Shown here: positions 1 to 757 of the stretch, piece after piece
Numbering within the stretch: position 1 is the first letter of the stretch
Layout of the letters: each line of letters starts with the position of its first letter
NCBI GenBank assembly: GCA_024279115.1
Contig: JAJRRW010000002.1
Coordinates: 1-39,201 of the forward strand
DNA length: 39,201 bases
Reading direction: 5' to 3'
DNA from: Alphaproteobacteria bacterium
GTDB lineage: Bacteria > Pseudomonadota > Alphaproteobacteria > Rhizobiales > JAKIUO01
Translations under genes and position numbers: made by a program
The notes under the pieces: model-generated
What the model was told of the DNA's origin: nothing
Databases searched by the model: none
The model's input: only the letters and a program-made list of their open reading frames with translations

Positions 1-181
1 CGGGAGGCAAGCGTGACCACGCGCCGCGCTGTAGCGCGCCACATCGGAGGCCCGCCGTAGGCGGAACAGCCGCGAGATAAAACAAAAACTCCGACCACCG
101 GGAGGCAAGCGCGACTGCGCGCCGCGCTGTAGCGCGCCACATCGGAGGCCACGCGTCAGCGTGAATAGCCGCGAGATCAAA
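1..181. repeat. Two tandem copies (period 98 bp) of a structured intergenic repeat, each with three short hairpins
   Basis: Copies start at 1 and 99: cgggaggcaagcg...gccgcgctgtagcgcgccacatcggaggc...agccgcgagat. Hairpins at 11-22, 25-38, 52-64 and at 109-120, 123-136, 150-163. The array may continue left of the window. Confidence 0.85.
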
Positions 182-757
182 CTATTGAACAAGCACGAGT
201 TGCCGGCCACTCATCTCGAAGCGCTCTAGACGACCGATAAAGCTCATGCCCAGCAAGGAAATATGCAAGGCCCCTTCTTCGTGTACGAAGGCTTTGACAT
301 TTTTGACTTCGATATCGCCGATCTGAATGGATTGCAGCATCACGGGCGCAACTTTGGTGACACCATTGGCGGTCCGCGCTCGCCCGGTATATTTCAGGTC
401 GTCGGTCAGCCCCAGACTGTCAGCATCCTCAAATCTCAATGCCACATAGGTTGCCCCGGTGTCGGCGATCAGCTTGATGCGGCTATCATTGATATTGGCA
501 TTGACTTCGAAATGACCGGTGCGCCCAGCCTGCAGGACAACGCGACCATAACCGCTGTCGTCTTGTTGCGGGAGCAATTGATCTTGCTGCGCGGCTTCAA
601 CGGCAAGCTCGCGGGCTTGTTGCTGCTGGTCGGCGCGGCCCTCAAGAAAAGCCCCGATCCGCTCATCCAGATAAAAGAAGCCGGCAAAGGCAATAACAAA
701 CACAGACAACCACAACAAGGCTTCGCCTAGAGTGTTGCGCAATCCGCTGGTCATCAA
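182..757 (-). CDS. Retropepsin-like clan AA aspartic protease (TIGR02281-type), membrane anchored
   Basis: 191 aa ORF, N-terminal TM segment, active-site motif ADTGATYVAL and C-terminal LLGMSFIGRL, typical of the alphaproteobacterial TIGR02281 family. Confidence 0.85.
   Translation of the reverse strand: MMTSGLRNTLGEALLWLSVFVIAFAGFFYLDERIGAFLEGRADQQQQARELAVEAAQQDQLLPQQDDSGYGRVVLQAGRTGHFEVNANINDSRIKLIADTGATYVALRFEDADSLGLTDDLKYTGRARTANGVTKVAPVMLQSIQIGDIEVKNVKAFVHEEGALHISLLGMSFIGRLERFEMSGRQLVLVQ

Follow-up and report, generated by a model that had tools for sequence, protein, structure and literature searches.

The intergenic repeats known from bacteria are, as a rule, short uniform palindromes. 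CIR elements, reportedly described by Chen and Shapiro in 2003, are said to be long intergenic repeats with an inverted-repeat layout in Caulobacter and other alphaproteobacteria, and to be associated with CcrM GANTC sites. A REP is a single palindrome of 20–40 bp, tagged GTAG or CGTC at one end (PMC3733652); such GTAG- and CGTC-tagged palindromes characterize REPs and BIMEs alike (PMC3733652, PMC2817692), and REPs favor the spaces between convergent genes (PMC1525189). Br-REP1 of Bradyrhizobium japonicum comprises three palindromes located in the transcribed, overlapping 3′-UTRs of convergent genes (PMC5082802). Also known are the RIME/ABC mosaic elements of Rhizobium (Osteras 1995, cited in PMC1273637) and the Bru-RS elements of Brucella, which are 103–105 bp long (PMC2267715).

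The window analyzed here, a stretch of 39,201 nucleotides from an alphaproteobacterial genome, starts at base 1 of contig C43 of its own assembly, and this contig opens inside a repeat array. The first-pass annotation had described two copies at a period of 98 bp, and the sequences it gave are present, within one base of the positions assigned to them. Between the copies, the H1 stem carries a compensated change (GCGT-GACC-ACGC versus GCGC-GACT-GCGC), three pairs of H3 differ and are all still paired (CCGCC-GTA-GGCGG versus CACGC-GTCA-GCGTG), and H2 is invariant. All three hairpins proposed for each unit were recovered; the count of three was too low, as a fourth hairpin (H0) and a long-range closing helix had been overlooked. 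As noted before, the array adjoins the end of an aspartyl protease gene, 4 bp beyond its stop codon (TAG, complement of 182–184) on the minus strand. This gene and its neighbor on the same strand (867–1571) both encode retropepsin-like aspartyl proteases (PF13975) and are apparent tandem paralogues. The array does continue beyond the left edge, as suspected; it is continued at the end of contig C114 (locus L020). The left flank of L020 is orthologous to the far flank of the window site in three relatives (G001, G002, and G003), with 79–81% identity, whereas the protease flank of the window matches the near flank of that site in the same genomes. The gene beyond the array on the L020 side encodes a 145-residue protein. 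RNA folding of the two window copies gave z scores of −0.8 and −0.3, so that the fold is not unusual from these alone, and more copies were needed to support a claim about structure.

When the first 200 bases were used as a BLAST query, 33 matches were obtained in the same genome. An iterative profile run on fetched loci from four genomes of the genus yielded 120 units, 56 of them from the genome of the window, although some contig ends may overlap in these counts; no units were found in a further genome of the genus (G004). We built a covariance model, R1, on 78 genus units and scored the best 14 candidates per genome, so that the following counts are lower bounds. R1 matched at least 98 of 298 genomes sampled from the order (about a third), at least 17 of 296 sampled from the class, and at least 13 of 299 sampled from the phylum, with few of the latter from outside this order or class. 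When named genomes were scanned with a pattern, hosts were identified among the Hyphomicrobiales, Hyphomonadaceae (Hellea, Robiginitomaculum, and Marinicaulis), Caulobacteraceae, and Sphingomonadales, as well as in Neomegalonema, Mesorhizobium (including M. xinjiangense), Pararhizobium, and Oricola (including O. indica). Collections of plasmids and phages contained no match covering most of a unit.

Table 1. Repeat units, their structural parts, and the adjoining gene in the window
Feature	Positions	Strand	Remarks
Unit 1, type A head, 5′ end cut by contig start	1–79	+	R1 covariance model 78.6 bits, model positions 16–94
Unit 2, complete, type A head	84–178	+	R1 99.4 bits, E 1.7e-24, model positions 1–94
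H0 of unit 2, CC-GA-CC-ACC-GG-GA-GG, tandem sheared G·A hairpin	91–105	+	
H1 of unit 1	11–22	+	
H1 of unit 2; outer GGC 104–106 pairs with GCC 121–123 over AA bulge	109–120	+	
H2 of unit 1 (CGCGC-tgta-GCGCG)	25–38	+	
H2 of unit 2	123–136	+	
H3 core of unit 1, c-GTA-g loop	52–64	+	
H3 core of unit 2, c-GTCA-g loop	150–163	+	
Closing helix of unit 1, ATC 43–45/GAT 76–78 and GGC 49–51/GCC 69–71, around H3	43–78	+	
Closing helix of unit 2, ATC 141–143/GAT 175–177 and GGC 147–149/GCC 168–170	141–177	+	
A-rich tail extension, kept at outer ends	178–185	+	TTTGATCTC/GAGATCAAA junctions; A-rich past the tail in all families
Aspartyl protease gene, 3′ end facing the tail	182–757	−	PF13975/PF13650

The unit is ~95 nt long, and one of its strands folds into four hairpins: H0, H1 (which contains an AA bulge), H2, and H3. 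Two short helices, whose internal loops are asymmetric and conserved, close H3. Read 5′ to 3′, the sense strand consists of H0, GGC-AA-(H1, loop GACY)-GCC, H2, a short linker, NNC-GGA-GGC-C-(H3)-AATA-GCC-GTGA-GNN, and an A-rich tail that is conserved in all families. H0 of type B is CCGNNG-loop-CNNCGG, the middle pairs of which covary; H0 of type A is CC-GA-CC-NNN-GG-GA-GG with tandem sheared G·A, and GA opposite GA or AA is kept in all 30 of the 30 type A units. Some units carry an optional hairpin insert, CCCTCAAA..GGTAGGGCAAC, between H2 and H3 (as CCCTCAAA..GCGAAGC..TAGGGCAACT at L043:2203–2310, L074:2281–2387, L026:1856–1966, and others), possibly an element inside the element. In A1 columns 41/66, CGCCG/CGTCG beside H1 varies freely (G·T makes up 27 of the 116 pairs from other families), and GAAGG replaces GGAGG in some units whose linker is GCTC; both variants may point to a further contact.

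Our results show that pairing is conserved while the letters of the stems change. Across the 78 aligned units of the genus, paired cells make up 91% of the total, and the score for covariation is 0.396, compared with 0.124 for shuffled data; none of 500 shuffles reached the observed value, and sliding the pairing partners gave scores of at most 0.10. The 134 units from other families are 95% paired, with double changes in 21 of 22 pairs, in an alignment that leans toward the model because these units were aligned to it. The NNC that precedes GGA covaries with the terminal GNN through exchanges of ATC/GAT, GTC/GAC, CTC/GAG, and CGC/GCG, and column pairs 62–64/98–100 of the closing helix covary in the genus alignment and the other-family alignment alike. 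These data support the proposal of the first-pass annotation that selection acts on a folded nucleic acid and not on a protein; independent variation of the stem positions, the outcome that would have spoken against it, was not what we observed.

The mismatches identify the strand that folds. Tandem mismatches in H0 and H3 are GA/GA in 85 cases and TC/TC in none (55 and none in H0 alone), and the pairs that surround GA/GA vary together (CC/GG, GT/AC, and CT/AG). Mismatches of the G·T kind outnumber A·C by 68 to 30, and by 41 to 19 after the two dominant columns were dropped (p 0.006, with rows that are not independent). Because GA/GA occurs without TC/TC and G·T exceeds A·C, the sense strand is the folded one, corresponding to the + strand of the window units. 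Among 76 H3 loops in the genus, 38 are GNYA, 23 are GNA, and 2 are GNRA; in other families, GNA accounts for 32 of 74. Stable RNA tetraloops of the GNNA type require a purine at the third place. In DNA, mini-hairpins with GNA and GNNA loops are extraordinarily stable whatever the N (PMC4686876). Because this loop type is unusually stable in DNA, the loops seem to fit single-stranded DNA better than RNA; the copies share ancestry, and the GNYA loops of the genus may reflect this ancestry instead of selection. The gene facing the tail has an mRNA that does not carry the folding strand; from this and from the loop type, we infer that the selected form is single-stranded DNA. We therefore consider a DNA fold likely. 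RNA folding energies were not unusual on either strand for most units and are uninformative as evidence.

In the genus, head-to-head pairs combine an A half with a B half in 28 of the 30 classified cases (p 9e-7), giving a heterodimer of ~220 bp with outward-facing tails and a spacer of 57–74 bp, with one exception of 127 bp. The outer ends continue as TTTGATCTC...GAGATCAAA. Gene context was assigned with a crude ORF caller and with related sites counted separately; on this basis, 22 of 31 genus arrays (23 of 34 on a slightly different list) lie between convergent genes and one between divergent genes, and tails face the 3′ end of a gene 47 times versus 6, at a median of 6 bp from the stop codon. 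Heterodimers in the genus are thus mostly located between convergent genes with a tail a few base pairs past the stop, and tandem copies are added locally. Among single units in other families, 18 of 35 have the tail no more than 25 bp from a stop, compared with 5 of 39 for the head (p 0.0004, crude gene caller), whereas the 3′ preference over all their arrays is weak (47 versus 35).

The sole genus array between divergent genes (L023:1612–2175) consists of six tandem copies of a divergent subtype with a period of 94, and a match to the ffh sRNA is found ~190 bp away (L023:2352–2404). GAATTC is enriched ~12-fold in the arrays (27 versus 2.2 expected) and is found in the spacers of genus head-to-head pairs. 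We also considered whether the two halves of a dimer diverge to avoid a long palindrome. H1 fits this idea, being the same in 1 of 17 dimers when 6.4 are expected, but H2 does not, and the trend is reversed for H3, which is the same in 9 of 17 dimers versus 3 expected; the idea was rejected.

Many sites are common to two to four species, with flanks that are 77–92% identical. At such shared sites, the spacer is sometimes nearly unchanged while the stems differ in both arms, and unit pairs compared across genomes show 0–8 doubly changed pairs. At the window site, the A half adjoins the protease gene in G000 and G002 and the B half does so in G001 and G003, indicating that the dimer was flipped or replaced in place. 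Empty versions of two other sites are present in G001 and G004, and G001 retains a decayed remnant at a third. Sites are thus inherited between species, and what changes in place is the stems, the number of tandem copies, and the orientation of the dimer. Dimers at different sites of one genome are mostly at most 83% alike, so that there is little to indicate recent movement; the L022/L034 pair in the genome of the window, nearly identical in unit and spacer, is the clearest case of a recent copy. For the most part, then, the family consists of long-resident copies that disperse rarely, grow locally in tandem, and exchange modules.

We compared this family with the known repeats. The suggestion that the array might match an already catalogued repeat found no support in Rfam, Sinorhizobium meliloti pSymB, or the accessible literature, with CIR compared by description only. 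In Rfam, no family scored above the curated gathering threshold in the window, and a permissive search of four other loci returned only two matches that lie beyond the units, namely ffh at L023 and mir-204, the latter by chance. Full-text searches with printed consensus strings gave only unrelated papers among the matches listed. The family model found nothing convincing in 300 kb of pSymB (best score 23.7 bits, E 0.029), and the mosaic repeat in that 300 kb, which by our own reading is RIME/ABC, differs in sequence. RIME/ABC and, by description only, Bru-RS do resemble the present family as palindromic intergenic elements of ~100 bp in Hyphomicrobiales. A CIR-like repeat built around CcrM sites was rejected on the basis of the CIR description: GANTC is rare here (3 in 12.3 kb of arrays versus ~7 expected from the window rate) and has no fixed site in the unit. 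The nearest published layout is that of Br-REP1, likewise alphaproteobacterial; its central palindrome, CCGGAATCTCGAGATTCCGG, has no counterpart here, and the available part of that report does not describe the covariation and heterodimers found in our family (PMC5082802). The family is apparently unnamed and is set apart from CIR by description, and Bru-RS is known here by description alone; an earlier partial description, for example as CIR or Bru-RS, is possible.

The resemblance to REPs and BIMEs is broad. The repeats are dispersed, intergenic, hairpin-forming palindromes, often in inverted head-to-head pairs and in tandem clusters, and lie mostly between convergent genes in the genus; like BIMEs, they combine two unit types in inverted pairs at gene ends, and GGAG precedes the bulged hairpins. 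Unlike a REP, the unit spans ~95 nt and combines four hairpins with a closing helix of long range, GGAG stands in place of GTAG or CGTC, the stems differ among copies of one genome, and there is no link to a RAYT. That these are ordinary REPs moved by a RAYT (TnpA-REP) would agree with the head-to-head pairing, the GGAG, and a tally of Y1_Tnp genes in about 10 of 26 element-bearing relatives versus about 5 of 35 others. We nevertheless consider it very improbable, as PF01797 (Y1_Tnp) is absent from the genome of the window, 22 of 23 Y1_Tnp loci have no unit nearby that scores convincingly (the single exception being a unit beside a broken IS200-like gene), and the palindrome flanking the RAYT-like genes of G002 and G003 is a GTAG palindrome of their own, GTAGGGCGCAATGTATTGCGCC, and not one of these units. 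No Y1/HUH transposase flanked by the same repeat as that in the arrays was found. The two RAYT-like Y1_Tnp genes lie at L265:1853–2901 (G002:C10) and L266:1848–2669 (G003:C33), and GTAGGGCGCAATGTATTGCGCC occurs in few copies per genome. At L269–L273 (G012, G027, G041, and G047), Y1_Tnp genes are flanked by AATTACGGTGACAGTTTACT-type repeats or the GTGTCCCCGTAA form, which is another repeat-transposase pairing in the order. With regard to a classical MITE, the outer ends TTTGATCTC/GAGATCAAA match each other, only one site shows a possible 5-bp duplication (AGATC), and the search for a parental transposase found none.

We lean toward the view that the arrays belong to a REP/BIME-like dispersed family of intergenic DNA repeats that is kept at gene ends and whose unit is larger and more structured than those of described REPs. 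The selected form would be single-stranded DNA. Dimers would be spread, on rare occasions, by a putative protein that acts on single-stranded DNA much as TnpA-REP acts on REPs; gene conversion might reshuffle the modules, and resident copies could be retained at convergent gene ends, where they may take up supercoiling or terminate transcription arriving from either side. If the element were purely selfish, 99% pairing in H1 and H2 would not be expected to persist at old sites. Against a reading as mobile DNA, the PF01797/RAYT search found no mobilizing protein, and no target-site duplication is established. A rather unlikely alternative is that the units function as RNA, as 3′-UTR structures with a role in terminating transcription or in protecting the two convergent mRNAs, each of which would carry the near unit of a dimer in antisense and the far unit in sense. 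The tails a few base pairs from stop codons in a convergent context, the sites and pairing kept between species, the TTCTTT-like runs after the inner hairpins in genus dimer spacers, one array with a terminator-like match (CCGATGGGTACATCGG-GGTTTTTAAT), and the transcribed location of Br-REP1 are all consistent with it. The best-folding strand, however, is not in the mRNA of the tail-facing gene, which leaves single units without a sense transcript; terminator-like matches are about as frequent as expected from shuffling, with none in the window array, the T run lacks conservation beyond the genus, the folding energies are unremarkable, and the H3 loops avoid GNRA. Simple scans of the spacers for intrinsic terminators and promoters likewise gave results near chance.

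The covariation could also arise with no selection on structure, if quasi-palindrome template switching and gene conversion kept the arms complementary. Whole arms are swapped instead of single steps being taken, H1 being GGCC/GGCC or GCGT/ACGC in 67 of 78 units, and the excess of dimers with the same H3 in both halves points the same way. Yet the closing helices, 35 nt apart, covary as well, with 93–99% of cells paired, and their conserved asymmetric loops (GGA/GTGA and C/AATA) argue against template switching, which would have made the loops symmetric; the conserved unpaired positions (AA bulge, GAC loop, GGA, and GTGAG) need another cause. This explanation is already weakened, and we give it little credence. 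More doubtful than the REP/BIME-like family that we favor, yet worth stating, is a separate class of single-stranded DNA element, in which an asymmetric A/B pair of four-hairpin modules, recognized by a putative protein through shape and not sequence, would be kept at convergent gene ends, flip in place, and form a two-way gene-end boundary in many Alphaproteobacteria.

Together, these data describe a real, widespread, and unusually well-structured intergenic repeat family, for which the covariation is strongly supported. With dozens of copies in one genome that have the same shape and different letters, every copy amounts to a naturally occurring compensatory mutant. Whether such repeats are junk, mobile DNA, or gene-end devices has long been debated and thereby becomes directly testable, and the covariance model allows the family to be mapped across the Alphaproteobacteria.
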